Virus record (IMG/VR): IMGVR_UViG_3300033144_007170 | Coordinates: 1 to 64,000 of that record | From: a virus | DNA: 64,000 nt | Direction: 5' to 3' (one strand) | Shown: positions 7,771-20,346 of the stretch, piece after piece | Layout: the number at the start of each line of letters is the position of its first letter | Position numbering within the stretch: position 1 is the first letter of the stretch | Notes under the pieces: generated by a model | Database searches by the model: none | Seen by the model: only the letters and a program-made list of their open reading frames with translations | What the model was told of the DNA's origin: nothing | Program-made: the position numbers and the translations under genes

Positions 7771-8043
7771 CTATAATATAATTTTATTGCTTGGGGATAT
7801 TATTTTTTTCTGAATAATAGTATTTTTATCGTCCAATTCCCCTTCTTTAGCTCTATCTATAAAATGATCTACTACAGCTTTGTTTGCATCGAACAGAATA
7901 CTAAGGGCAGTTCTTAGGTTTGTAGGGATTCCATTTACAACTACGCTTTTATTATCCAAAACTGTTATCCTCATCTGCATAATAGGCTTTGGGATATTCT
8001 TTAAGCCTGGCATATTCATTACTTTATCGTTTTTCTTATCCAT
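7771..8043 (-). CDS. unknown 90-residue protein
   Basis: A short beta-rich N-terminal half (QMRITVLDNKSVVVNGIPT) is followed by a helix (LRTALSILFDANKAVVDHF). Strong ribosome site. Not recognised. Confidence 0.6.
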   Translation of the reverse strand: MDKKNDKVMNMPGLKNIPKPIMQMRITVLDNKSVVVNGIPTNLRTALSILFDANKAVVDHFIDRAKEGELDDKNTIIQKKIISPSNKIIL

Positions 8044-8058
8044 GTTTTAATTTCTCCT

Positions 8059-8343
8059 TTATTTTATTTCTTTAATCCATCTCTGTTTAATAGCAAAATT
8101 ATAGTTAATTTGCCCCAAATCCCGAATTAATATCCCTTTATCGTATTCTCCAGGCAACAATTTCATACGAAGATCATCGGGATGCGGTAATATCATTAAA
8201 ACTCTTACTCTCGTTTTTTTATTTTTCTTTTTAGGAAGGGCATCAAACAATTCTCGTATCTTCTCCTCACCTCTTTCTATATATTCAGCTCTTTTTCTTT
8301 GTGTCTCGTTGTATTCACTTAATCTATTTGGAATATTTAACAT
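8059..8343 (-). CDS. unknown basic protein
   Basis: 94 residues, with a charged helical first half (RLSEYNETQRKRAEYIERGE) and a beta-like second half (TRVRVLMILPHPDDLRMKLL). The start codon overlaps the stop of an 18-codon frame upstream (ATGTTAA). Not recognised. Confidence 0.6.
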   Translation of the reverse strand: MLNIPNRLSEYNETQRKRAEYIERGEEKIRELFDALPKKKNKKTRVRVLMILPHPDDLRMKLLPGEYDKGILIRDLGQINYNFAIKQRWIKEIK

Positions 8344-8393
8344 TTTTTAATTACCTGTCTTCCTAATTCTATTACTTCTCTATTAAATAACAT
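8337..8393 (-). CDS. possible 18-residue ORF
   Basis: A short frame (MLFNREVIELGRQVIKKC) fills the gap between two genes and overlaps the next start codon, which suggests translational coupling. The ribosome site is weak. Confidence 0.3.
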   Translation of the reverse strand: MLFNREVIELGRQVIKKC

Positions 8394-8396
8394 TTT

Positions 8397-8611
8397 CTAT
8401 TTTTCCTTTTTATTATCCGCCTCAGAACTGGCAGGACAAATTAATTCCCCTCGAAAAAAAGTAAAGTTCCCATTGTGGGGCGAAGTAGATTATCCGCACT
8501 TCCTGTAGTCTGTATACGATAATCTTCTTTATTTGCAGACCCTACCCCAAGACTCTCGGATACACTGTCTTCGTATTCAGAAATAGTACGGGGTTTTCTT
8601 TTACCTTCCAT
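8397..8611 (-). CDS. small ORF split by a -1 frameshift at a T7 run
   Basis: The zero frame starts MEGKRKPRTISEYEDS and stops at 8441. At the run of seven T (plus-strand A, 8454-8460) the -1 frame continues FRGELICPASSEADNKKEK to a stop at 8397, giving about 71 residues that read like one protein. The continuation fills the gap to the next gene. Either programmed frameshifting or a one-base homopolymer error explains it. Confidence 0.5.
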
Positions 8612-9344
8612 ATTTTAATACCCCCCAATTATCCAAAAATCTTTCGTACTTTCCTTGGGTATGTTTTGTGTGCACCGAGATACTCCGAGCAGTCAGATAT
8701 TCTTTTGGGATAAGATACATTCTCTTTTGGGTAAAACAAAAGAAAAAATCAACATCGTCTCTTTGTGCTGTAGCTGTAGTTTGAACGGTATGCATATACG
8801 GATATTTCTTAATTGTAGATCTATATAATCTATGAGCAGAAAGAACGTATCCATTAACATGTATCCGGAATGTATAATCTTTTCTGACTATTTTAGCTTT
8901 TTTAAACTTTTTTTTCTTTAAAATAGTTAGGGCATCGAGATAGACCTGATATATCTGACCTTTATAAAAAGGTACTTTCCTGTAATATCTTCCTGGGAAA
9001 CACCCCTGATATTTCCTTTGGTAAATCGACTGAAAATAAATAGAAGCCTGTGCCTTAGTAAAGTTAAAATATTCCCCGACATCTGTGAGAGAGATTAAAG
9101 GATCTTCAAGCATAGTTCTAAGCTGTAAAAAACTTCCTTTCTCTCTATTCTTATCAAATCTGTTCTCAAGGATTGCTATTCTATCCCGCATATTCAAATT
9201 TTTTCTAACTTTTCTTAAAAGATAAACAGATACCCCAATCTTTTCCGCAAGAATATAATCAGGAATCCCTTTATGTTCCTCCCAAAACTTAAGAGGTAAA
9301 TCCTTTAATCTATATTCGATTGAATTTTTTATAATCGTATTCAT
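8601..9344 (-). CDS. HTH protein with nuclease-like C-terminal domain
   Basis: 247 residues. Two helix-turn-helix-like segments (ILAEKIGVSVYLLRKV and LTDVGEYFNFTKAQASIYF) precede a beta-rich end with VQTTATAQRDDVDFFFCFT and MYLIPKEYL. That end resembles the homing-type PD-(D/E)XK nucleases (QVKTA ... DYFxV ... YLIP), but the catalytic Lys is not evident (VQTTAT), so it may be an inactive DNA-binding version. Confidence 0.6.
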   Translation of the reverse strand: MNTIIKNSIEYRLKDLPLKFWEEHKGIPDYILAEKIGVSVYLLRKVRKNLNMRDRIAILENRFDKNREKGSFLQLRTMLEDPLISLTDVGEYFNFTKAQASIYFQSIYQRKYQGCFPGRYYRKVPFYKGQIYQVYLDALTILKKKKFKKAKIVRKDYTFRIHVNGYVLSAHRLYRSTIKKYPYMHTVQTTATAQRDDVDFFFCFTQKRMYLIPKEYLTARSISVHTKHTQGKYERFLDNWGVLKYGR

Positions 9345-9378
9345 AAAACTCCATACAACCAGTTTCTCGTAATGAAAC

Positions 9379-9603
9379 CTATATAACAGATATAAAGTCT
9401 GTCTTTGCTACAGAAACAAAATTTTGGATTTGTTCTCCCAAAGAATTATCTATTTTTGTATCCTGTATTTCTACAAAATCTCCATTCTTATCGGAAAGCG
9501 TTATCCAAATATTCCCACTCTCTACCTTTAAACTTATAGTATATCCTTTGGGCAATAACCGAACAGCTTCTTCCATTGCTTTTTCAAAAATAATCATATT
9601 CAT
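9379..9603 (-). CDS. unknown 74-residue protein
   Basis: Start chosen at the ATG overlapping the stop of the upstream gene (ATGA). Alternating beta strands (YTISLKVESGNIWITLSD) suggest a small beta-sheet fold. The stretch around its start (GGAGTTTTATGAATA) is nearly identical to that of the next gene downstream at 9344, so the translation-initiation region was duplicated. Confidence 0.6.
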   Translation of the reverse strand: MNMIIFEKAMEEAVRLLPKGYTISLKVESGNIWITLSDKNGDFVEIQDTKIDNSLGEQIQNFVSVAKTDFISVI

Positions 9604-9731
9604 AAAACTCCATACACCCAAGCGATTCCTACAGCAGTCCATCCTAATATAGCTTGGGCCTTTTGACTGGATATATTTAAGAGAAGATTAACTGCAATTA
9701 CTATCCCAAAACCAATCTCTAAGCTACTCAA
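9600..9731 (-). CDS. small membrane protein
   Basis: 43 residues starting at TTG, just after AAAGGAGGTGAAT. Two hydrophobic stretches (FGIVIAVNLLLNI and ILGWTAVGIAWVYGVL) suggest a membrane hairpin. First gene of the transcript from the promoter at 9763-9791. Confidence 0.6.
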   Translation of the reverse strand: MSSLEIGFGIVIAVNLLLNISSQKAQAILGWTAVGIAWVYGVL

Positions 9732-9762
9732 ATTCACCTCCTTTTTTTCTCTCCTAAGAATC

Positions 9763-9791
9763 TATATAACAGATATAAAGTATAATGTCAA
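9763..9791 (-). promoter_or_regulatory. sigma-70-type promoter
   Basis: TTGACA, 17 bp, TATATA with a TG before the -10. A motif copy (9802-9815) lies ten bases upstream of the -35. It serves the small-gene run starting at 9731. Confidence 0.75.
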
Positions 9792-9801
9792 TAACAAAAT
9801 A

Positions 9802-9815
9802 AGAACACGAGTTCA
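9802..9815. promoter_or_regulatory. near-palindrome AGAACACGAGTTCA (copy 2)
   Basis: Intergenic, immediately upstream of a promoter, the position of an operator or activator site. It is the reverse orientation of the TGAACTCGTGTTCA form. Confidence 0.55.
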
Positions 9816-9853
9816 ATAGGCACAGAAGAATCTAATAATAACCAGCGGAAAAT

Positions 9854-9928
9854 TGGTAGCCGCATCAAGATTTGAACTTGAGTCGCCCGCTTATAAGGCA
9901 GGTGCTTCTACCATTGAGCTATGCGGCT
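9854..9928 (-). tRNA. tRNA-Ile(UAU), CCA encoded
   Basis: Acceptor AGCCGCA/TGCGGCT, then TA at positions 8-9, D arm around GCTC-AATGGTA, anticodon stem CCTGC/GCGGG with loop CTTATAA (anticodon UAU), T arm TCAAG-TTCAAAT-CTTGA, discriminator A and CCA. The anticodon reads AUA, a codon used often in this AT-rich genome and often scarce in hosts. It lies directly behind its own promoter. Confidence 0.9.
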
Positions 9929-9950
9929 TTTCCGTTTTTAATTTAAAGAA

Positions 9951-9979
9951 ACCATAGCATAGATTAATTCCATTGTCAA
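9951..9979 (-). promoter_or_regulatory. tRNA promoter
   Basis: TTGACA, 17 bp, TATGGT. The predicted transcript start falls about 15 bases before the first base of the tRNA, so this promoter serves the tRNA directly. Confidence 0.75.
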
Positions 9980-10240
9980 CAACTTAAATTTTTAGATAGA
10001 AGAGAGAGGAACCCTTACCTACAGACCTAAATTTTTAGATGAAATAGAAGGGTGCTTTACATAGTACAGATTAATAGTCCACAATTTGAATTTTTTAGTT
10101 AAAATATGAAGGGGTTCATGCGAGGTACTGAGCGTATCCGTTTTGCAAAAAAAGAAGAGGCGGGGGTCTCCTGTAGGATACACTGACAGTATTGTCATGT
10201 GTCACTGGTGGCAGTATGTCAGTAGTATCATGTCAATAGT
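9980..10240. repeat. repeat-rich non-coding stretch
   Basis: No credible gene. Three direct repeats of about CTAAATTTTTAGATNNNAT (near 9983, 10028 and 10084) are followed, at about 10180-10250, by six or more TGTCA/TGACA words in both orientations. Regular iteron-like spacing between promoters is compatible with a replication origin or a multi-site regulator-binding region. Confidence 0.5.
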
Positions 10241-10254
10241 GTCAGGACTAAAGG

Positions 10255-10290
10255 ACAAACAAAAGGCGCAAGCTGTATAAGCCTTGCGCC
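10255..10290 (-). terminator. intrinsic terminator of the small RNA
   Basis: Stem GGCGCAAG/CTTGCGCC with a ten-base loop, followed on the minus strand by TTTTGTTTG. Orientation is minus only; the plus side lacks a T tract. Confidence 0.8.
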
Positions 10291-10345
10291 CGTCTTTCTG
10301 TCTATCTAATACTAATCATCTCACATAAGCTACCTCCCTTTGGCC

Positions 10346-10375
10346 GTTAAGATCCATTAAAACAAGGATTGAAAC
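10346..10375 (+). repeat. solitary CRISPR-repeat-like unit
   Basis: Exactly 30 nt, beginning GTTAAGATCC and ending AAGGATTGAAAC. It has a 5-bp stem (GATCC/GGATT, one wobble) around a ten-base loop and the ATTGAAAC handle common in type I-B/III repeats. There is only one copy and no spacers or cas genes. The detected promoter transcribes the opposite strand. Confidence 0.4.
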
Positions 10376-10384
10376 ATTAATCTT

Positions 10385-10413
10385 ACTCTAACATAGAAAT
10401 TTGGAAAAGTCAA
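10385..10413 (-). promoter_or_regulatory. small-RNA promoter
   Basis: TTGACT, 17 bp, TAGAGT. The predicted start is near 10378, at the edge of the CRISPR-repeat-like segment. Confidence 0.65.
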
Positions 10414-10430
10414 GCTTTTTGATATAAAGT

Positions 10431-10526
10431 TTACAGTGAACGTAAAGAAATTATTGCCGCCACCAGCGTAATCATAGCACAAACGGCATAAACAGAAGCT
10501 GGGCTTACATTAATAACAATATCCAT
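10431..10526 (-). CDS. 31-residue membrane peptide
   Basis: Strong AGGAGGGTAG ribosome site. One transmembrane helix (VYAVCAMITLVAAIISL) with an outside-in N-terminus and a single Arg near the end. Last gene of the 13.9-10.4 kb operon. Confidence 0.55.
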   Translation of the reverse strand: MDIVINVSPASVYAVCAMITLVAAIISLRSL

Positions 10527-10556
10527 GGTACTACCCTCCTTTTTTGACTCCCTGAC

Positions 10557-10970
10557 TTAAATATCTAAGGTTTGAATCTGATCGGACTTATTACGGTATA
10601 ACAGCCTGCTCTCCTCCTGAAGTTTTTCTACGACCTGCTCTGATGAAAGAACCTCAACGGTCTCCGTACATGCCTTACTTCTACACTCTGCAACCCATGC
10701 CCGTACCTGGTCTATCCGATCCTGCAGGACTTTTGCGATCTCAGCAGCAGATTCGGTATAATCTAACTTAGAGAAAGTAAAATATTTCTTGTATTCTCCG
10801 AAATTGAGGGTGTCCGAACCACCACCGAAAACACCGAACCCATACTCCCCGCTCGTTCCCGTAATTTTGCGGGATGTCCGCCCGCCTGGCCTCTTAATCC
10901 ATACTCCGTCAATTTCTATCTCTATCTTAGTTTTCCCTTCTTCTGTCACTGTTTTTCTCAGTTTTAGCAT
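10557..10970 (-). CDS. unknown 137-residue protein
   Basis: The N-terminal half is beta-rich with a Gly-rich turn (FGVFGGGSDTLNFGEY); the C-terminal half is helical (AAEIAKVLQDRIDQVRAWV). Not recognised. Base composition is visibly higher in G+C than the replication genes, like the rest of this operon. Confidence 0.6.
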   Translation of the reverse strand: MLKLRKTVTEEGKTKIEIEIDGVWIKRPGGRTSRKITGTSGEYGFGVFGGGSDTLNFGEYKKYFTFSKLDYTESAAEIAKVLQDRIDQVRAWVAECRSKACTETVEVLSSEQVVEKLQEESRLLYRNKSDQIQTLDI

Positions 10971-10999
10971 CTGTTTATCCCCTTTTTCCTAAATTGTAG

Positions 11000-11182
11000 T
11001 TATTTCAGTAAACTTCCTGATTTTATGGGCTCTTCTCCATCGTCTCCTGTCACGGTGTACCGGATATCTGCATCATCAAAAGGGGAAGGCCAAAGCTCGT
11101 AAAGAAAGTTCCCTCTCTTCAGTGTTAGGAAGTGTATTTCTTCCCCTTCATGGTGCATTGTGCCTGCAAAGTCTTTTTTCAT
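11000..11182 (-). CDS. unknown 60-residue protein
   Basis: Small beta-rich protein (HFLTLKRGNFLYELWPSPFDD; DIRYTVTGDDGE), probably a single sheet. Good spacing within the operon. Not recognised. Confidence 0.5.
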   Translation of the reverse strand: MKKDFAGTMHHEGEEIHFLTLKRGNFLYELWPSPFDDADIRYTVTGDDGEEPIKSGSLLK

Positions 11183-11254
11183 TGTTTGGTCTCCTGTATA
11201 GCTGATTTTATCAGTTTTGTTATAGGTTTACCGGTATTTCCTATTGTCCCTCTC

Positions 11255-11629
11255 TTACGCTCGTATAAAGTAAGAAACTCCATCAAAATCTACTTCCATA
11301 TAGTCCTGTTTGATTTCTCTGGCTACTCCCTCCCAATCAATATGAATTTCAATGTACCAGGGCAGTTTTTCCGGTATGTCCCCGGTATCCTTACATAATT
11401 CCTCGCAATAAGCTGTGAAATAGTCTTCATTGATAAAAACTTCCCCATATTCCCAGTCTGGGGAGCTATTTGCTTCTATCTCCAAATTTTTTAAGGCTGA
11501 CAGCTCTTCTTTCTCCTCTTCAAGGTCCCGATCCGCTTCTGCTCTTTCAATTTCATCTTCCAGCTCCGCAATCCGCTCAAGGATATCCCTGCTATCAATA
11601 ACATCATCAGTATTGTCTATTTTATTCAT
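11255..11629 (-). CDS. acidic small protein with ArdA-like C-terminus
   Basis: 124 residues: an acidic coiled-coil N-terminus (RIAELEDEIERAEADRDLEE), then a domain ending DWEGVAREIKQDYMEVDFDG and SYFIR. The Glu/Asp-rich DWxxxAxxxxxDY...DGxxYxxR ending resembles ArdA-type DNA-mimic anti-restriction proteins, but also a common unnamed phage family. The net charge is strongly negative. Anti-restriction is only a possibility. Confidence 0.5.
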   Translation of the reverse strand: MNKIDNTDDVIDSRDILERIAELEDEIERAEADRDLEEEKEELSALKNLEIEANSSPDWEYGEVFINEDYFTAYCEELCKDTGDIPEKLPWYIEIHIDWEGVAREIKQDYMEVDFDGVSYFIRA

Positions 11630-11644
11630 ATTTTCACCTTTTCC

Positions 11645-11953
11645 TTATATTTGGTATTGCCTGAGTCTCATATACTTATCCAGCTCCCGGATAGCGCCCT
11701 TACCCAGCGGCAAACTATAAGTTTTGAACTTATCTTGCACTAAAACCGTAAAACCTTCGGTTCTGGTGTCAATCGTAACTCCTGAACACGTGTACACTCC
11801 CGAAACACCCGGAAGCCACTTTCGGCGCTCAAGGGCTCGGCAAAAAGACTGCACTGCTCTTGATTTCCGGCCTTCAGAGCTCAATTTCATTGATCCACCG
11901 TTGTTGCTCCGGATTGCCGCCCGGAACCCTGAAATAACTGCACTTAGCATCAT
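11645..11953 (-). CDS. unknown basic protein
   Basis: 102 residues from the ATG that overlaps the upstream stop (ATGA). An N-terminal helix (MMLSAVISGFRAAIRSNNG) and a beta-rich end (GVTIDTRTEGFTVLVQDKF). The motif copy at 11783-11796 lies inside the coding sequence. Not recognised. Confidence 0.55.
   Translation of the reverse strand: MMLSAVISGFRAAIRSNNGGSMKLSSEGRKSRAVQSFCRALERRKWLPGVSGVYTCSGVTIDTRTEGFTVLVQDKFKTYSLPLGKGAIRELDKYMRLRQYQI
11783..11796. promoter_or_regulatory. near-palindrome TGAACACGTGTACA (copy 3)
   Basis: Perfectly self-complementary core ACACGTGT. Inside a coding sequence. Confidence 0.5.
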
Positions 11954-12165
11954 ATTTTCGCCCCCTCTGAATAATCTACACAATAAAACTGTTTATTCTC
12001 CCGCTTCAGCAACTCGTTACATTGTTCTACACTTATTTCGGTACCGAACCCGCCTTTTTGGCTTTTATGGTAGGTCATCAATAAAGAAAAGGCATTTTTA
12101 TCAGAATTTCCGATATTAGAGAACAAGGCTCGGAAATCTTTGTTGAAGTTGCATACTATTTTCAC
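11950..12165 (-). CDS. unknown 71-residue protein
   Basis: A mixed helical protein (FNKDFRALFSNIGNSDKNAF; EISVEQCNELLKRE) with a polar end. Coupled to the next gene by a 4-base overlap. Not recognised. Confidence 0.5.
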   Translation of the reverse strand: MKIVCNFNKDFRALFSNIGNSDKNAFSLLMTYHKSQKGGFGTEISVEQCNELLKRENKQFYCVDYSEGAKI

Positions 12166-12245
12166 TTTTACCCCCCTGAACTCACTGTTATCAGGCCTTC
12201 ACAACCCGACGTCCTGACATGCCGTATGACAGGACTTTTTCGGTT

Positions 12246-12515
12246 TTACATGCCTGAGTATGCCTCGATTTCCTCGGTTTCAGTGTCAATACAATCCTCT
12301 ATCTCATATTCACCGAAAGGATCGTTGTTTACTCCCTCTTCCGCCAACAAATTCAGATAATTATGAAAAGATTGCTTTGCTTGCTTCAGTCTTTCGTTTG
12401 ATTCATCAAAAATTTTCCTACAATACACATAAGACTGTAAATAACCCGTTATCTCCCCGCCCTGGTATGTCCTATATTGCTCTGCTGTCATATCTTTAGG
12501 TGCCGCATGTATCAT
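12246..12515 (-). CDS. unknown helical protein
   Basis: 89 residues, long helix (YCRKIFDESNERLKQAKQSF) and an acidic C-terminus (CIDTETEEIEAY). Not recognised. Confidence 0.5.
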   Translation of the reverse strand: MIHAAPKDMTAEQYRTYQGGEITGYLQSYVYCRKIFDESNERLKQAKQSFHNYLNLLAEEGVNNDPFGEYEIEDCIDTETEEIEAYSGM

Positions 12516-12519
12516 GATA

Positions 12520-12861
12520 TTACCTCCCGTATTGCTCTATGCTATATCTGTCTGCCCGCCCGTATGCCGCAATAACTTCTTGATCGGCCTGTATTACTTT
12601 GACGGGGCGGCTCCAATCCGAATCCGATAAAAATGTAGCAATAATATTATTTGCTTTGCGGATAGACGAAAAGCGGCCTTGGAAAAACCCTATTCCTGAT
12701 TGTATATGAGTTAAGCTGTAAGATTTTACACCACATTCAGCATCACTATAATGTATAGTGATTGCCAACCCCCTTACGTTGCTTTTATACCCGTATACCA
12801 ATATTTCCTGGCCGGTACCCGACGGAGTCTGAAGTCTAATCATAAACATTTCTTTTTTCAT
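12520..12861 (-). CDS. unknown 113-residue protein
   Basis: ATG start after GGGAGGGG; a GTG two codons earlier is possible. Beta-rich (EILVYGYKSNVRGLAITIHY) with a polar helical end. Not recognised. Confidence 0.5.
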   Translation of the reverse strand: MKKEMFMIRLQTPSGTGQEILVYGYKSNVRGLAITIHYSDAECGVKSYSLTHIQSGIGFFQGRFSSIRKANNIIATFLSDSDWSRPVKVIQADQEVIAAYGRADRYSIEQYGR

Positions 12862-12881
12862 TGTCACCCCTCCCTTCTGAT

Positions 12882-13274
12882 TTACAAAGTTTCGCTCAAT
12901 GCGTACTCATACGTGGAGTATAGATAATCTTTCACCCCAAAGGACTCAATATTACTGCTGAAATTCCCAATAATATTGATTTCATAACCAAATTGCAGGG
13001 AGGGTGTTATAATTACCCTGTAATCAACCCAGCCTGCATAATACCCATTTTCGTCCATTACATGATATGAGTTATGGAGTACAATCCGATCCGGCTTAGA
13101 TTTCTCATAATCAAGGGTAGTCTTCCTGTCTATCCCAGATCCGTGCGGCAATCTATGCTCTATAATTGCCTCAATGCTGTATTCATGGGCGCCCTGCCCA
13201 TTATCATTTTTATTTTTTATATGATTTAAGCGGGCCCGAATAAGCCCGGAAAGCCGCTGTATTACCGTCTGCAT
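12882..13274 (-). CDS. unknown 130-residue protein
   Basis: Begins with a helix (VIQRLSGLIRARLNHIKN) followed by beta-strand segments (WVDYRVIITPSLQFGYEINI). Strong ribosome site. Not recognised. Confidence 0.5.
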   Translation of the reverse strand: MQTVIQRLSGLIRARLNHIKNKNDNGQGAHEYSIEAIIEHRLPHGSGIDRKTTLDYEKSKPDRIVLHNSYHVMDENGYYAGWVDYRVIITPSLQFGYEINIIGNFSSNIESFGVKDYLYSTYEYALSETL

Positions 13275-13285
13275 TATTTTCCCTC

Positions 13286-13381
13286 CTATATAATAAGATA
13301 TAGACCTAACAAAATCAGCCCGACAAATGCCAGCTTACAAAAAACTACATCCCAAACAAAATTGATCAAATCTATTAACAT
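13286..13381 (-). CDS. 31-residue membrane peptide
   Basis: GGGAGG ribosome site and almost entirely hydrophobic (KLAFVGLILLGLYLII). One membrane helix. It fits exactly between its neighbours. Confidence 0.55.
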   Translation of the reverse strand: MLIDLINFVWDVVFCKLAFVGLILLGLYLII

Positions 13382-13398
13382 TTTTTAACCTCCCTATT

Positions 13399-13566
13399 TT
13401 ATTTTTCTTGTGTTTCAGACCACGCCATAGGATCTACCCATACAACCCGGACTATTGCATACCCTGGGGGATTATGAAAAGTATCCCCGATAATGCTGCT
13501 ATAGTGCGCCTGGTTGAAGTCACAATCCGTTACCCTATACCGTTTTTCTTTCCCGCCGCTATGCAT
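13399..13566 (-). CDS. unknown 55-residue protein
   Basis: Start overlaps the upstream stop, after AGGAGG. HSGGKEKRYRVTDCDFNQA and YAIVRVVWVDPMAW suggest a small beta fold. Not recognised. Confidence 0.55.
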   Translation of the reverse strand: MHSGGKEKRYRVTDCDFNQAHYSSIIGDTFHNPPGYAIVRVVWVDPMAWSETQEK

Positions 13567-13732
13567 GCCTTAATAACCTCCTATCCATACGCCCCCTTAA
13601 TATTTCAGCCGCTAAAATAGTATCATACACCACATCCAGGCAATCCCGATCTTTCGCCAGTTCCAAGATCTCATGAACTATCTTGTGGGTTCCTGGGGAT
13701 GTCAATATTTTTTGTTCTTGCTCTTTTGTCAC
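13559..13732 (-). CDS. unknown 57-residue helical protein
   Basis: GTG start five bases after AAGGAGG. Helical (HKIVHEILELAKDRDCLDV and TILAAEILRGRMDRRLL) with a basic end. Coupled to the next gene by overlap. Not recognised. Confidence 0.55.
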   Translation of the reverse strand: MTKEQEQKILTSPGTHKIVHEILELAKDRDCLDVVYDTILAAEILRGRMDRRLLRHA

Positions 13733-13742
13733 GGTGACCTCC

Positions 13743-13895
13743 TTATTTTTTCAGATTAAGTATTTCTTTTTTAGTTGCTCTCCGGGTCCCTGACTCGGTA
13801 GCTACGTAATATACCCCTTTAAGAGCAAAAACAGCGTGTCCGGTATGATATCCTGTTTTTGTTCTATTCCCCTTATATTGCTCAATTTTTTTCAT
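13743..13895 (-). CDS. first gene of the operon, unknown 50-residue protein
   Basis: AGGAGG ribosome site 5 bases before ATG. Basic (MKKIEQYKGNRTKTGYHT) with a beta stretch (HAVFALKGVYYVAT). Lies directly behind the promoter at 13929-13957; likely an early-expressed gene. Confidence 0.6.
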   Translation of the reverse strand: MKKIEQYKGNRTKTGYHTGHAVFALKGVYYVATESGTRRATKKEILNLKK

Positions 13896-13928
13896 ACGGC
13901 CTCCTTATAATTGTTAATCTTGCCATTG

Positions 13929-13957
13929 TATATAGCAGGACTCGTGCCAGTTGTCAA
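13929..13957 (-). promoter_or_regulatory. operon promoter with possible operator in the spacer
   Basis: TTGACA, 17 bp, TATATA with TG before the -10. The spacer has unusually high G+C for this genome and contains GGACTCGTGCCA, about three mismatches from the TGAACTCGTGTTCA motif, so the promoter may be controlled by the same DNA-binding protein. It drives genes from 13895 down to about 10431. Confidence 0.75.
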
Positions 13958-14096
13958 TATAAAAGTAGGCTCCTAACTAACTACGTAAAATCGTTACTGA
14001 AATTAATACTTAAACGGTTTCTTAATCAGATTCTTAAAAATAAGTGTACAAGATTCAGACAGAAATTTTAAGGACCGTACACTTTTAGAAAGGAAA

Positions 14097-14486
14097 TTGA
14101 ATAAAATAAAGGAGTTGTGGAAAGAAAAGGGAAATTCTGGATTCTGTACAATTTTTGCACAGGGAACACGTGTTCAGAAAATGCTTTCTGTTGAAACTAT
14201 ATCAGGTGAAACAATTTCAGTAGAAGTATTCTTTACTGAGACTATTTTAATAGAAATAATTTCAGTTGCAATCATCTCAACTGAAGTATTTTTTACTGAA
14301 ATAATTTCAGTTGAGATCTTTTCACCTGAAGCCATCTCAACTGAAATGAAATCCAAATCGGAACCTACCCCAGTCGAGAGCCTCAAATTGGACAGAATTT
14401 TTCAGATCCTCAAACTGGAACCCACTACAGTCGAGGAACCTGAATTGGACAGGATTTTTTTGATTCCTAAACTGAAACCTAATTAG
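14097..14486 (+). repeat. 15-bp tandem repeats, open on both strands
   Basis: About a dozen degenerate 15-bp units built on TTTCAGTTGAAAT and its near-complement. The plus frame (129 codons, TTG start) gives five-residue units of the form x-I-S-x-E; a minus frame at 14174-14386 gives the same type of unit because the repeat is nearly palindromic. The plus frame has a purine-rich site but would be a rare plus-strand gene. It could be non-coding, such as a protein-binding array. Confidence 0.45.
14163..14176. promoter_or_regulatory. near-palindrome GGAACACGTGTTCA (copy 4)
   Basis: Perfect 12-bp palindrome GAACACGTGTTC, at the left edge of the 15-bp repeat array. Confidence 0.55.
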
Positions 14487-15050
14487 AGCCAAAGAGCAGC
14501 CAAGAGACCCTATTATGCCTGATTAGCAAAATCCTTACATAGATTAGAGATATCTAAGTGGGCCTCGCAAAAGCTCTCTGAGCAAAATTTTTATTTGGAA
14601 CGATATTAATAGCTTACGCATACTGCTCATTTGAGCATAATAAACCCCCAATTATAAGCACACAAAAGCAGGTTCAATTTTCGTAGATTTTCTCGGAATC
14701 TTAAGTAGAAACCTAATTTTAGTCGAGAGATCCAAATTGGACAGGATTTTTCGGAAATCCACAGGGTGCAAGGAGAAGGAGGAGGGGGGGGTGCAAGGAG
14801 AAGGAGGAGGGGGTAGATTATGTATAAGATTAGACTGTTTGAGGGCTTTAATGACTATAGATAGTGTATTTACAGGGGTATGGGGGGTAAATATATCTTT
14901 AGGATAATTGAGGAAGGGTGTTTTTACTTTACCATTTAAAGATATAGCATAGAAGTTTATAGGGGGTATTAAGTTTTCTCTTATAGTAAATACCTCCGCC
15001 GGCGCCATAACCTACGGGCGTTTATGTAATACATAATACCTTCTTACCTC
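14487..15050. other. poorly coding region with short repeats
   Basis: No convincing gene. A 118-codon minus frame (14652-15008) has no ribosome site and crosses a repeat. Present are degenerate copies of AGTCGAGAG...CAAATTGGACAG (near 14371, 14431 and 14722), and near 14981-15034 a 17-codon frame after AGGAGG that looks like the stump of a gene. Confidence 0.5.
14766..14813. repeat. two-unit purine-rich tandem repeat
   Basis: Two copies of a ~24-bp unit beginning GTGCAAGGAGAAGGAGGAGG. Purine-only runs like this can be slippage products or binding sites; no function is evident. Confidence 0.8.
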
Positions 15051-15054
15051 CTTT

Positions 15055-15183
15055 TCATATTTCTGTTAAGATAACATACAACCCCACACAAACCGCCCCC
15101 AAAGACAAACGCCATAATTGATGGGTTGATTGCCCGTAGGAGATGAAATAAATTGCGCTGTATAATAAAATTGCGTTTAGCAT
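15055..15183 (-). CDS. 42-residue membrane protein
   Basis: Two hydrophobic stretches (ILLYSAIYFISYG and LSLGAVCVGLYVILTEI). The start overlaps the upstream stop codon. A holin-like shape, but this size also fits many small phage membrane proteins. Confidence 0.5.
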   Translation of the reverse strand: MLNAILLYSAIYFISYGQSTHQLWRLSLGAVCVGLYVILTEI

Positions 15184-15488
15184 AATAGTCCTTTCTGTTT
15201 GGCGCTATCTTTGGCCGCCGTGATTTCTTTCTTCATATCTTTTGAAATAGTTACTCTGTGTATTTCCCCCCGATCATCTGTGATCTCAAATTTAACAAAA
15301 TGAAGATATTCTATTATTTCAACTTTAGCCTTCGTGGTTCTGCCCGCCTTAGTTTGTTCCTCCCTATATTCTTTTGGAGATATAGGAAGAACCGTAAAGT
15401 ACCCCGGGCCTTCTGTATTTTGAAAATTCAATACGATACAATCAAATTTACGAATCTTCTGATATTCTCGGCCTTCAAATATAACCAT
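15177..15488 (-). CDS. unknown 103-residue protein
   Basis: Start at the ATG after GGGAGGG; the longer frame would overlap the upstream gene. Beta-rich (KFDCIVLNFQNTEGPGYFTV) then a helical, Lys-rich end. Not recognised. Confidence 0.55.
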   Translation of the reverse strand: MVIFEGREYQKIRKFDCIVLNFQNTEGPGYFTVLPISPKEYREEQTKAGRTTKAKVEIIEYLHFVKFEITDDRGEIHRVTISKDMKKEITAAKDSAKQKGLLC

Positions 15489-15522
15489 TTTATTTACCCT
15501 CCCGTTTAATACAACTGATATT

Positions 15523-15810
15523 TTAAAATTTCCGGTGTAACGAATTAATAAAGTCCCATACCTCTTTATCAAATACTGTTTCCATTGCCTTTTCAAAAAT
15601 AAAATGTGTTGCATCATCGTTGACCCAACCGTCTTGGGAAAAATCTTCTACATATTTTTGACATATAATCTGAAGGGGTTTAAGGTTTGGCGCAAGTGTC
15701 GGTTTTGGTAAAGCCTGCACCCGCTCTTCCTCTTTACGCTTATTTATTTCTGCTTGTAATTCTTCTATACTCATATTCTCAAGCAAAGGTCCTTGTTTCC
15801 ATTCAGTCAT
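15523..15810 (-). CDS. unknown 95-residue protein
   Basis: N-terminal helix (MSIEELQAEINKRKEEERV), Pro/Lys linker, then aromatic-rich segment ending ETVFDKEVWDFINSLH. Not recognised. Confidence 0.55.
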   Translation of the reverse strand: MTEWKQGPLLENMSIEELQAEINKRKEEERVQALPKPTLAPNLKPLQIICQKYVEDFSQDGWVNDDATHFIFEKAMETVFDKEVWDFINSLHRKF

Positions 15811-15811
15811 G

Positions 15812-16093
15812 TTATCTCCTTTTCTTAATAAAAATTAAACAGGTTAGTCCTTCTGAATCTATTACTATTTTAGGCTCGGCAATACGGACGTTTAAAAAAA
15901 GAGCTTTTCCCGCCAACTCCCCCTGTAGTCTCAGGTCGGCAAGAATATTCTTATCCTCATCCCCCGTATACACAGGATCCTCTGCACCCAGTAATTTACC
16001 CCAATTAATAGACATTAAATCTTCTTCTCTCACTGTAATTTCATCTTCCTTCCCAGTATTGGGTATAAGTTTTATTTTTGGGTATGCTGGCAT
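15812..16093 (-). CDS. unknown 93-residue protein
   Basis: ATG after AAAGGAGGCATAAA. Mixed beta/helical (YPKIKLIPNTGKEDEITVRE; GELAGKALFLNVRIAEP). Not recognised. Confidence 0.55.
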   Translation of the reverse strand: MPAYPKIKLIPNTGKEDEITVREEDLMSINWGKLLGAEDPVYTGDEDKNILADLRLQGELAGKALFLNVRIAEPKIVIDSEGLTCLIFIKKRR

Positions 16094-16094
16094 T

Positions 16095-16364
16095 TTATGC
16101 CTCCTTTCCTTCTGCTTTGTTAATTGCTTCTTTAAGATCTTTGTAAACATTACCGTCAGCTCTGTCGAGACCCTCTAAAAACCCCTTGGCTGCTTTACAG
16201 GCTATTAGTAATTCCGGAGCGCCGCCGATTAAATTACCATACTCTTGATAACACGGGGACAGGGTACAAACAGTTTTAGGTATCGGTTTACGCCCTATAT
16301 CTCTTACTGTAAAACGAATATCGTCGTATTTCCATGCTTTATTATAATCCCAATAAGATAACAT
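16095..16364 (-). CDS. unknown 89-residue protein
   Basis: ATG chosen at MLSYWDYNKAW after AGGAGAG. Contains PKTVCTLSPCYQEYG and a C-terminal helix (LLIACKAAKGFLEGLDRADG). Stop abuts the next gene. Not recognised. Confidence 0.5.
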   Translation of the reverse strand: MLSYWDYNKAWKYDDIRFTVRDIGRKPIPKTVCTLSPCYQEYGNLIGGAPELLIACKAAKGFLEGLDRADGNVYKDLKEAINKAEGKEA

Positions 16365-16365
16365 T

Positions 16366-16575
16366 TTAATTTTTTCTCCTCTCCTCCCCTTCTTTTTCTT
16401 CTTCAGATAAAAGGTTGACTGGATACTCATTTATGCAGCCATAATCGCCGTGAGTTTCCACTATTTTGAAGACCTTGTCGCCTAACAATCGATCCGACAA
16501 CGCTTGATTTTTATCTGTATAGGTTCCGACTAACTGTCCATGCCTTCTTATCATGTACTTACACATATTGTTCAT
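16366..16575 (-). CDS. unknown 69-residue protein
   Basis: Short protein with KYMIRRHGQLVGTYTDKNQA and an acidic, Lys-rich tail (LLSEEEKEGEERRKN). Not recognised. Confidence 0.5.
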   Translation of the reverse strand: MNNMCKYMIRRHGQLVGTYTDKNQALSDRLLGDKVFKIVETHGDYGCINEYPVNLLSEEEKEGEERRKN

Positions 16576-16608
16576 ACTGGATACTGGGCCGCCCTCCTTT
16601 TTTTCTTC

Positions 16609-16622
16609 TGCACACGTGTGCC
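16609..16622. promoter_or_regulatory. near-palindrome TGCACACGTGTGCC (copy 5)
   Basis: Intergenic, perfect 12-bp palindrome GCACACGTGTGC between two small genes. Confidence 0.5.
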
Positions 16623-16623
16623 T

Positions 16624-16974
16624 TTATATCGTAAAAGTCTCTTCCCCGTTCCAGTCTTTGTTTTCGTCTGCTAAGTTTCTATTCACTGCCTGTAAGATAT
16701 ATCCACATAAAGTTATTGTCTCTTTTTTGGATTCCCATTGTTCTGGAGATATAATATCCCCTATAGCTAAGAAATTAAAATCTGTCCTTCCCTTAAGGCT
16801 CCTATACGCTACCCTCCCCGATAATTTTACTTTGGGGGCATACCACACACTTTGGTCCGCATCTTCTGTATAGGGTAAAGGCAGTTGATTGTATCTTAGC
16901 ATTTTAATTTTGGTTATTTTCATCCTTTGGGCTCCCCGAACTATTACTTTCTTTGCTTCTATTTTAATCGCCAC
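16624..16974 (-). CDS. unknown 116-residue protein
   Basis: Basic, beta-rich (IKIEAKKVIVRGAQRMKITK; WYAPKVKLSGRVAYRSLKGR). Not recognised. Confidence 0.5.
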   Translation of the reverse strand: MAIKIEAKKVIVRGAQRMKITKIKMLRYNQLPLPYTEDADQSVWYAPKVKLSGRVAYRSLKGRTDFNFLAIGDIISPEQWESKKETITLCGYILQAVNRNLADENKDWNGEETFTI

Positions 16975-16995
16975 AATATATCTCCTTCCTTTTTC

Positions 16996-17322
16996 TTATC
17001 TACTTTTCAATCGACGTATTTGCCTATTTCTTTCTTCTATGGTATTTTTTAGAGTTTCTATGAGCTTTTCTTTTTTCTCTACTTCTTCTTCATATGCTTG
17101 TAGTATAACTTTTATGTTTGTATGAGAATCCATTTTCTCTAATTCTTCTTCATATTGTAGTATTAATAGAGGATAATCTGGCAAGGGACACCATTCAGGA
17201 ATACAATCGCTCCTTTTTAAGGTCTTAGAAATTTTTCCGCAATTGGGCTCATTCTGAGCGCCCAAAAACCAATGCTGGCATTTTGAGCATTTTAATATTT
17301 TCATAATTTTCATAATTTTCAT
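16996..17322 (-). CDS. zinc-knuckle plus coiled-coil protein
   Basis: 108 residues. CSKCQHWF and later CGK and CIPEWCPLPDY give Cys pairs near the N-terminus, followed by a long heptad helix (EEEVEKKEKLIETLKNTIEE) and a basic tail. Also note the repeated MKIMKIMK start. Role unknown. Confidence 0.55.
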   Translation of the reverse strand: MKIMKIMKILKCSKCQHWFLGAQNEPNCGKISKTLKRSDCIPEWCPLPDYPLLILQYEEELEKMDSHTNIKVILQAYEEEVEKKEKLIETLKNTIEERNRQIRRLKSR

Positions 17323-17340
17323 AAGACACCTAATTTTAAT

Positions 17341-17499
17341 TTATAGAGTTAAATCTGTTCTGTGCATTAAATACATCCCGACCCTTGTCAGTATATAAAA
17401 CGGAGGCGTTACTGTTGTGTCTATGGATAATAATAGTTTTCCCAGACCGGCAAACATACCCCACGATATTATGTATAATATTTCAGATAGGTGTTTCAT
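17341..17499 (-). CDS. 52-residue membrane-associated protein
   Basis: Overlaps the stop of the upstream gene. An N-terminal hydrophobic helix (SEILYIISWGMFAGLGKLLL) and a second half with a polar helix (YILTRVGMYLMHRTDL). Not recognised. Confidence 0.5.
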   Translation of the reverse strand: MKHLSEILYIISWGMFAGLGKLLLSIDTTVTPPFYILTRVGMYLMHRTDLTL

Positions 17500-17773
17500 A
17501 ATTTTGTTTTCTTTTTAATGCAATCCATCGTTTAACTATTTGTTCGGAGCCCCAACAATTTATAGGAGTTTTGCTGTATAAATAAGATGCGTATGCTTGA
17601 ATATTTCTTAGATTCTCCTCATCCGCTTCCTCTAATGCCCCTACCAAATCATTCTCAAATATTTTGGTTAGAAAATCTCCAGGGTATATTCCTTGGTCTA
17701 TATATCTTCGTATTCCCGGCATCATTCGTTCTGGAATATGCCATTCCCGAAACCTGTAAATTTTATCTGACAT
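17483..17773 (-). CDS. unknown 96-residue protein
   Basis: ATG at MSDKIYRF after GGGAG; earlier starts would overlap the upstream gene. Helical, with RRYIDQGIYPGDFLTKIFEN and a Trp-rich end. Resembles small phage proteins ending in ALKRK but not assigned. Confidence 0.5.
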   Translation of the reverse strand: MSDKIYRFREWHIPERMMPGIRRYIDQGIYPGDFLTKIFENDLVGALEEADEENLRNIQAYASYLYSKTPINCWGSEQIVKRWIALKRKQNYETPI

Positions 17774-17786
17774 TTGACTCCCTTCT

Positions 17787-18017
17787 TTATACTTTCTGCA
17801 CATACGATGATCCATTACTTTCCTCTATGAGTTCAAAATGAGAGTCCTTTGCGGCATTTATTAATAACCCTAACGCTTCCAGAGTTATAACATCCACAGC
17901 ATCTCCCAACACCTCTTCGGAACTATAATCCAAAGTCAGTCCGGCTTTACCTACATTGTCTAAAGTTCCATGTATTCTTACATCTGCTATCTCTACTGTA
18001 ACTTTTAATTGTTTCAT
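17787..18017 (-). CDS. unknown 76-residue protein
   Basis: Alternating strands (KVTVEIADVRIHGTLDNVGK) and a helix (VITLEALGLLINAAKDSHFE), a possible small alpha/beta fold. Not recognised. Confidence 0.5.
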   Translation of the reverse strand: MKQLKVTVEIADVRIHGTLDNVGKAGLTLDYSSEEVLGDAVDVITLEALGLLINAAKDSHFELIEESNGSSYVQKV

Positions 18018-19985: not shown

Positions 19986-19995
19986 TTTTATTCCC

Positions 19996-20346
19996 CTAAA
20001 AATCAGTTTCGGAAAGATTTGCACCGGAAAGATCAGCACCGGAAAGATCAGCCATGTAAAGGTTTGCGCCGGAAAGATTTGCACCGAAAAGATCAGCACC
20101 GGAAAGATTTGCACCGGAAAGATCCGCCGTAGAAAGATTTGCACCGGAAAGATTTGCACCGGAAAGATTTGCACCGGAAAGATTTGCACCGGAAAGATCA
20201 GCACCGGAAAGATCAGCCATGTAAAGGTTTGCGCCGGAAAGATTGATTTTTACTTTGAGCGCTGCTACAACTGCCGCTTTGAGTGTTTTGGCTTCGACAT
20301 CTAATATCAGCCTATTGCTGACCCGGTGTCTTATTTTAATTTCCAT
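19996..20346 (-). CDS. pentapeptide-repeat protein
   Basis: 116 residues. A 35-residue lead ([20 protein letters not shown]) is followed by about 16 tandem pentads of the A-(D/N)-L-S-G type, e.g. [11 protein letters not shown]. Such proteins form a right-handed beta helix that can mimic DNA and protect gyrase or bind polymerase. The same lead segment is common in phage pentapeptide proteins. First gene behind the promoter at 20409. Confidence 0.9.

Follow-up and report, generated by a model that had tools for sequence, protein, structure and literature searches.

What a single CRISPR repeat might do in a virus, outside any gene and directly behind an operon of small genes, is the question raised by a locus at positions 10258 to 13957 of IMG/VR virus record IMGVR_UViG_3300033144_007170. 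We analysed bases 1-64000 of this 93,556-base record (the window). An earlier note on this DNA had described the operon and flagged RNA elements beside it, one of which is the CRISPR repeat, overlooked there. By itself, the operon is an accessory island of moderate interest; the solitary repeat makes the locus, judged from its sequence, a candidate RNA anti-CRISPR locus. Solitary viral repeats that copy the CRISPR RNA (crRNA) strand act as RNA anti-CRISPRs (Racrs), according to the sections of the defining paper used here (Camara-Wilpert et al. 2023, PMC10651486). The present locus would be an unusual candidate Racr locus, because its nearest promoter-like site is on the antisense strand. The reading we favour, tentatively and at somewhat less than an even chance, is an acquired anti-defence island in which an ArdA-type protein would act against restriction and a noncoding RNA (ncRNA) against type I-B CRISPR-Cas by antisense pairing.

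The solitary repeat and a predicted antisense RNA

The repeat occupies 10339..10375 on the + strand (crRNA orientation), directly 3' of the operon, and matches Rfam family RF01320 (CRISPR-DR7) with 38.4 bits against a gathering threshold of 37. Rfam matches to plastid, miRNA and Listeria families stayed below gathering and were rejected. Its final 24 nucleotides (nt; 10352-10375, ATCCATTAAAACAAGGATTGAAAC) are identical at 24/24 positions to a widespread repeat tail. At least 113 stretches of genome contigs from bacteria and archaea carry this tail exactly, and many of them are long arrays; no repeat copy arose in 100 shuffles. The next-best match in the window has 7 mismatches, the whole record holds a single copy within 3 mismatches, and no second repeat lies within 100 bp, so that the two or more repeats around a spacer that define a mini-CRISPR array are absent. 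The repeat is intergenic, between the stop codon at 10431 and a tRNA gene ending at 9928. The only open reading frame (ORF) listed near it (10357-10482, -) is without support, and no gene-like - strand ORF of at least 40 amino acids (aa) covers it. On these grounds the element is a solitary repeat unit, and its sense 37-mer retains the hairpin.

Among bacterial arrays, that of Clostridium liquoris has 29 contiguous repeat nt in common with the phage. Whole-repeat identity is at best 31/37 (84%) among the array matches listed, against a Racr yardstick of at least 90% over at least 90%. The 13 nt before the tail are mostly constant within a locus and vary between hosts. The C. liquoris and Herbivorax arrays adjoin type I-B Cas8b/Csh1, Cas7/Csh2 and Cas5b, and a Methanosarcina array adjoins Cas3. 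In these three loci, all that were examined, the array lies on the strand of the cas genes, which fits a crRNA handle ending in GAAAC, as such handles do. Passages of PMC7465815 did not help to settle the repeat strand. Among annotated phages, 10 records match the repeat weakly, none over 80% of 40 nt.

On the antisense side, a promoter-like site (10385..10413, -; TTGACT-17-TAGAGT, with TATGT before the -10 element) ends 9 nt from the repeat. It scores 11. Of random 80-nt pieces taken from the window, 0.9% reach this value, and a consensus site as good would lie within 3-12 nt by chance with a probability of 0.0017 per side. On the sense (+) side, no promoter within 80 nt scores above 7, and the top value further upstream is 9/12 (10252-10281). 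The upstream crRNA-strand promoter that serves as a criterion for Racrs was thus not found, and consensus scans may miss unusual promoters. An intrinsic terminator (10261..10290, -) consists of an 8-bp G+C-rich stem followed by TTTT; the stretch 10255-10300 folds at -17.2 kcal/mol (z -2.6; 2/200 shuffles as good), and the hairpin is absent from the consensus scan because its loop exceeds that scan's loop limit. Together, the promoter-like site and the terminator frame a predicted 121-nt ncRNA (10258..10378, -; read from 10378 to 10258), which starts with AAUGUUUCAAUCCUUGUUUUAAUGGAUCUUAA and has the repeat's reverse complement as its 5' part. Its predicted pairing with four host repeats has energies of -37.6 to -44.0 kcal/mol, or a net -26 to -35 after the cost of its own fold, and shuffled RNA against the C. 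liquoris repeat gives a mean of -12.3 and a best value of -20.9 kcal/mol. Minigenes of two to five codons follow GGGAGG within the predicted ncRNA.

The site at 10413-10385 belongs weakly to a class of phage promoters (TTGACTTTT..TTTTATCTATGYTATRTA) with 8 strong sites, all on the - strand (57506, 53234, 45323, 39170, 27788, 20437, 18423 and 9979). Scored with a matrix from 7 phage promoter sites hand-picked for a shared TATG motif, itself not among them, 10413-10385 comes 9th when every position of both strands is considered, at 18.2 bits. The highest value in 5 shuffles was 16.4, and each of the top 9 positions is on the - strand.

The mechanism that we propose has two arms. The operon's ArdA-type DNA-mimic candidate would act against restriction enzymes, and a separate ncRNA gene 3' of the operon would target the host CRISPR-Cas system. 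The - strand RNA, beginning at about the start given above, would carry the anti-repeat of a type I-B crRNA and form 24-29 uninterrupted bp with each repeat of the precursor (pre-crRNA), over the Cas6 hairpin and the 8-nt 5' handle. Such 8-nt handles are carried by Cas6 products, as stated in the part of PMC3945376 drawn on here. The duplex would block Cas6 processing or Cascade loading, or be exposed to RNase III, and read-through from the operon would add the same anti-repeat within a 3' untranslated region. Transcription, host type, pairing in cells and effect are what we infer; taken strictly, the idea that a phage RNA disarms type I-B CRISPR-Cas by pairing with pre-crRNA and crRNA handles is doubtful, and more so than the island reading as a whole. 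That reading draws on composition, promoter-like sites, the terminator hairpin, the ArdA relationship, the identity and solitary state of the repeat, and the strand on which the best promoter-like site close to it lies, all of which the sequence shows.

The adjoining small-gene island

The leftward operon (13895-10431, -) comprises 13 ORFs of 31-137 aa, read from 13957 downward. The earlier note had called it compositionally distinct, with higher G+C and its own promoter, and the per-gene check of G+C and codon use that it proposed agrees with this. G+C of 10431-13895 is 0.418, the highest for its size within the 64 kb, against 0.354 for other genes; only 3/1211 equally long sliding windows reach 0.418, and the top window outside the island is at 0.393. 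Island genes have a mean G+C of 0.423 and, at third codon positions (GC3), of 0.414 (n=10), compared with 0.354 and 0.290 for 113 other called genes. Against the 80 other genes of at most 150 aa, the difference gives p = 1e-5 for G+C and 1.7e-5 for GC3 (Mann-Whitney), and codon use deviates as well (p = 6e-4). These statistics used a heuristic gene caller weighted towards the - strand, which included 10/13 island ORFs and left out 11950-12165 and both 31-aa ORFs.

The operon promoter-like site (13929..13957, -; TTGACA-17-TATATA with a TGn extended -10) is on the correct strand, 34 nt ahead of the first gene, and is unlike the second phage promoter class (TTGACTTTT..TCTATGYTATRTA). Sites as good are not in excess (5 scoring at least 12 in the window vs 0-6 in shuffles); the argument for this promoter is therefore its position, not the number of such sites.

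The suggestion that one protein ends like ArdA is borne out at a distance by P9 (11255..11629, -), an ArdA-related acidic protein of 124 aa with an isoelectric point (pI) of 4.1 and a net charge of -27. Its residues 2-122 match phrog_25535, a family of unknown function, at 1.8e-19; the match to the "anti-restriction" phrog_14321 is weak (E 0.027) and covers only the C-terminal part (103-176 of 183). Searches with tblastn found relatives in 27 phage records. Among them are Caulobacter phage C1 (9e-19), which has the gene within its terminal repeat, and a Citromicrobium phage whose matching protein is annotated as ArdA (1e-16). A four-way alignment of P9 and relatives has 32 invariant columns. 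Neither P9 nor the Citromicrobium relative matches PF07275; the Caulobacter and Mycobacterium relatives do so at 9.5e-5 and 0.0078, with scores of 23.5 and 17.3, both below the cut-off of 27. The single-sequence structure model of P9 is unreliable (pLDDT 51), and its acidity is read from pI and charge. An ArdA-related DNA-mimic candidate is the most fitting description of P9.

P4 (12882..13274, -; 130 aa) has relatives in 11 phage records, near the record ends in 3/5 phages examined. The relative is at most 3 kb from the end in Brevundimonas phage Kabachok (a circular record), Achromobacter phage 2-1 and Ruegeria phage V16. Behind a 1.5-kb gap, the relative in Sphingobium phage Lacusarx heads a series of small genes of unknown function; in a Rhodobacteraceae phage it lies amid small genes 1.6 kb before the terminase. 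Genome ends are a usual place of early genes, so that early expression of the island is plausible by analogy. The P4 model, of low-to-moderate confidence (pLDDT 67), has a helix/four-strand/helix arrangement; searching with it returned a single viral protein, uncharacterised (E 3.6e-4), and nothing in the PDB below 0.001.

The remaining ORFs, all on the - strand, begin at the 5' end with P1 (13743..13895; 50 aa, basic), P2 (13559..13732; 57 aa) and P3 (13399..13566; 55 aa), none of which has a family, and a hydrophobic 31-aa ORF (MLIDLINFVWDVVFCKLAFVGLILLGLYLII; 13286..13381). P4 is followed by the orphans P5 (12520..12867; 115 aa), P6 (12246..12515; 89 aa, acidic, net -11), P7 (11950..12165; 71 aa) and P8 (11645..11983; 112 aa, basic, net +12). 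Beyond P9 come P10 (11000..11182; 60 aa, without Pfam match), the orphan P11 (10557..10970; 137 aa) and a second hydrophobic 31-aa ORF (MDIVINVSPASVYAVCAMITLVAAIISLRSL; 10431..10526), which like the first was outside the family scans. That most of these genes have no known family was seen again here: 0/10 island proteins scanned reach the Pfam cut-off, P10 is also matchless, and 1/10 has a clear PHROG match. A PADLOC scan of the island proteins gave weak noise only; we considered P5 as a Cas8b mimic and set this aside, its Cas8b match being very weak (E 0.04) and probably due to chance.

Repeats and RNA elements bracket the island, as had been noticed: tRNA-Ile(TAT) (9854-9928) and CRISPR-DR7 on the left, and repeats of period 15 to 60 on the right. 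Within 9854-10116, the tRNA has its own promoter-like site, with three A+T-rich direct repeats preceding. The right-hand repeats (14192-14479; periods 15, 45, 57 and 60) show inverted symmetry and reversed GC skew, and separate the island from the next leftward genes. At about 19990-20346 (-), a pentapeptide-repeat protein is encoded by a 15-nt repeat array. The description as an anti-host island stands in part: composition, the promoter-like site, the ArdA-related protein, the P4 family at record ends and the adjacent CRISPR repeat speak for it, and most of the 13 ORFs carry no functional evidence. We found no close phage relatives by megablast of 8000-18000 against phages or by viral-contig scans with P9, TerL and P11; for TerL, the best 15 of 351 records are Vibrio and Rhizobium phages, 34-36% identical.

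Alternative explanations and the same repeat in other viruses

Ten other viral contigs carry the exact 24-mer, in 11 stretches; for the 19-mer tail the number of stretches is 17, those included. No second copy lies nearby in L002, L003, L005, L006, L010, L011, L177, L178, L179 and L181, although a match with 6 mismatches lies far off on the opposite strand of L006, and the L011 repeat lies within a long ORF. Mini-arrays are found in L007/L009, L008, L012 and L180; the L004 repeat has a degenerate copy as neighbour, and L182 matches poorly.

Some of these stretches deserve mention in their own right. L009 and L012 belong to one 117,770-base viral contig (IMGVR_UViG_3300009528_000013) with two separate two-repeat mini-arrays. 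At about 1630-1800 of L178, and in the near-identical L181, a solitary repeat has a sense promoter, and its 5' part (CCCGTTCCCGG) can pair with downstream CCGGGAACGGG, followed by TTTT; by sequence this is a candidate clamped, self-terminating Racr-like RNA. In L010 (390-560), a TTGACA-17-TATATT promoter precedes the repeat and two more hairpins (CTCCGTAAGGAG, CCCCGTAAGGGG), the last followed by GATTGAAAC; a 17-bp inverted repeat encloses all three, Rfam names the first of the three only, and the whole is possibly one RNA imitating several repeats. Viral contig L140 (2886-2931, -) has TTGACT..GGTATGCTATCAT and then GTTTCAATCCCGGCGCGGTCGC ahead of an ORF, a possible anti-handle leader of unconfirmed CRISPR identity; it was rejected as a second antisense case, as its repeat could not be verified. 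In L035 (1494-1531), an array of Cloacimonadota, the last 22 nt of a spacer include the reverse complement of 21 nt of the array's own repeat, as though the spacer had come from an element that carries the repeat.

Several results weigh against antisense action on a type I-B host. The 18.2 bits of the ncRNA promoter are far below the clear class members (29.5-34.8) and barely above a + strand match (17.6), and its -10 element (TAGAGT, 4/6) is poor. Consensus promoters occur at chance number, with 15 in the record vs a shuffle mean of 14.6, and 15 vs 12.3 shuffled in the region; 14/15 of the sites in the record lie on the gene strand. The own fold of the ncRNA is unremarkable (z -0.5). As to the host, the first 13 nt of the phage repeat reach at best 7/13 among the arrays found, GTTAAG plus the 24-mer has no exact match in genome contigs, and the longer repeat is found within 3 mismatches in 0/391 genomes of the class of C. 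liquoris. Among 1517 spacers or repeat-adjacent pieces from the loci collected, no protospacer rose above the reversed-window control save one repeat-derived spacer. Elsewhere in viruses, promoters scoring 11 stand on the crRNA strand in L010 and L178/L181, and the same tail therefore serves there as an ordinary-looking sense unit. On the antisense side, the L008 mini-array has a score-11 site 36 nt away, and the solitary L005 (705-741 of the reverse complement) a weak promoter-like site (score 10 at 5 nt). A promoter followed by an anti-handle occurs in 3 stretches of viral contigs vs 36 for a reversed-tail control, with no enrichment; two of these 3 lie within genes and seem to be chance matches.

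The main rival to antisense pairing is a conventional Racr, in which a + strand repeat RNA would be bound and cut by host Cas6b and tie Cas6/Cas7 into an aberrant complex, like RacrIF1. The repeat is solitary, outside genes and beside an anti-defence-like operon, as are the Racr candidates in the sections of PMC10651486 considered here; its sense 37-mer keeps the hairpin, and the sense promoters just mentioned belong to solitary units with the same tail. However, the best + strand promoter scores nearby are the 7 and 9 given above, the leftward terminator crosses the upstream side of the repeat, and the adjacent genes run the opposite way, with 38/42 ORFs of at least 150 aa in the window on the - strand, and we hold this reading to be rather unlikely. 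It is quite improbable that the repeat works as DNA, as a decoy Cas1-Cas2 integration site, or is a relic of a mini-array or of recombination without RNA function. Relics would be expected from viral loci that are mini-arrays of this repeat, and the first 13 nt resemble no array found; on the other hand, 24/24 identity argues for recent acquisition or selection, and a promoter-like site and terminator frame the repeat.

That the element is a one-repeat crRNA gene, with the downstream sequence as a guide against a rival element, is very improbable indeed. Virus-borne mini-arrays for interviral conflict are known (the parts used of PMC6858448 and PMC11656645), but there is no second repeat and no good sense promoter here, and the 24 nt following the repeat have no exact match in viral contigs. 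Finally, the operon may consist of ordinary accessory genes of foreign origin that lie beside the repeat by chance. Most of its proteins have no assigned function, as this explanation would have it; the ArdA relationship of P9 and the location of P4 relatives at genome ends in 3/5 phages speak against it, and we regard it as unlikely. The acquired anti-defence island with an antisense RNA is thus set beside these alternatives as the reading that we prefer, with the reservation already expressed about its mechanism.

Comparison with known systems

The RNA anti-CRISPRs known so far are imitations of the repeat. Pairing with it instead would, if true, represent a second principle, and a single RNA of this kind could act on many hosts, because the 24 nt covered are common to the arrays of numerous bacteria and archaea. 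The repeat element is also a concrete lead for reading the neighbouring unknown genes as anti-defence genes. In the sections of PMC10651486 that we used, acr genes are enriched within 1 kb of racr candidates and the tests concern types I-F, I-C, I-E and V-A; in its main text, "antisense" and "type i-b" both occur 0 times. Titles and abstract openings in the literature searched, which held few subscription papers, named no antisense RNA against repeats as an anti-CRISPR.

The element resembles Racrs in being a single repeat outside genes, with no cas genes seen beside it, near anti-defence-like genes and within a predicted small RNA. It differs in that its promoter-like site points antisense and that only 24-29 nt match host repeats contiguously. 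With virus-borne mini-CRISPR arrays it has in common a viral copy of a host-type repeat, but not the second repeat or a spacer. Like ArdA (PF07275), P9 is strongly acidic, and it aligns with one ArdA-annotated phage protein and two sub-cut-off PF07275 scorers; unlike ArdA, it is short (124 aa), without a PF07275 match and with only the weak C-terminal phrog_14321 match. The type II tracrRNA is a small RNA with an anti-repeat in its 5' part and a terminator hairpin at its end. The predicted ncRNA likewise has a 5' anti-repeat and a terminator hairpin, but it would pair with a type I-B repeat, without Cas9, and would inhibit crRNAs rather than mature them.

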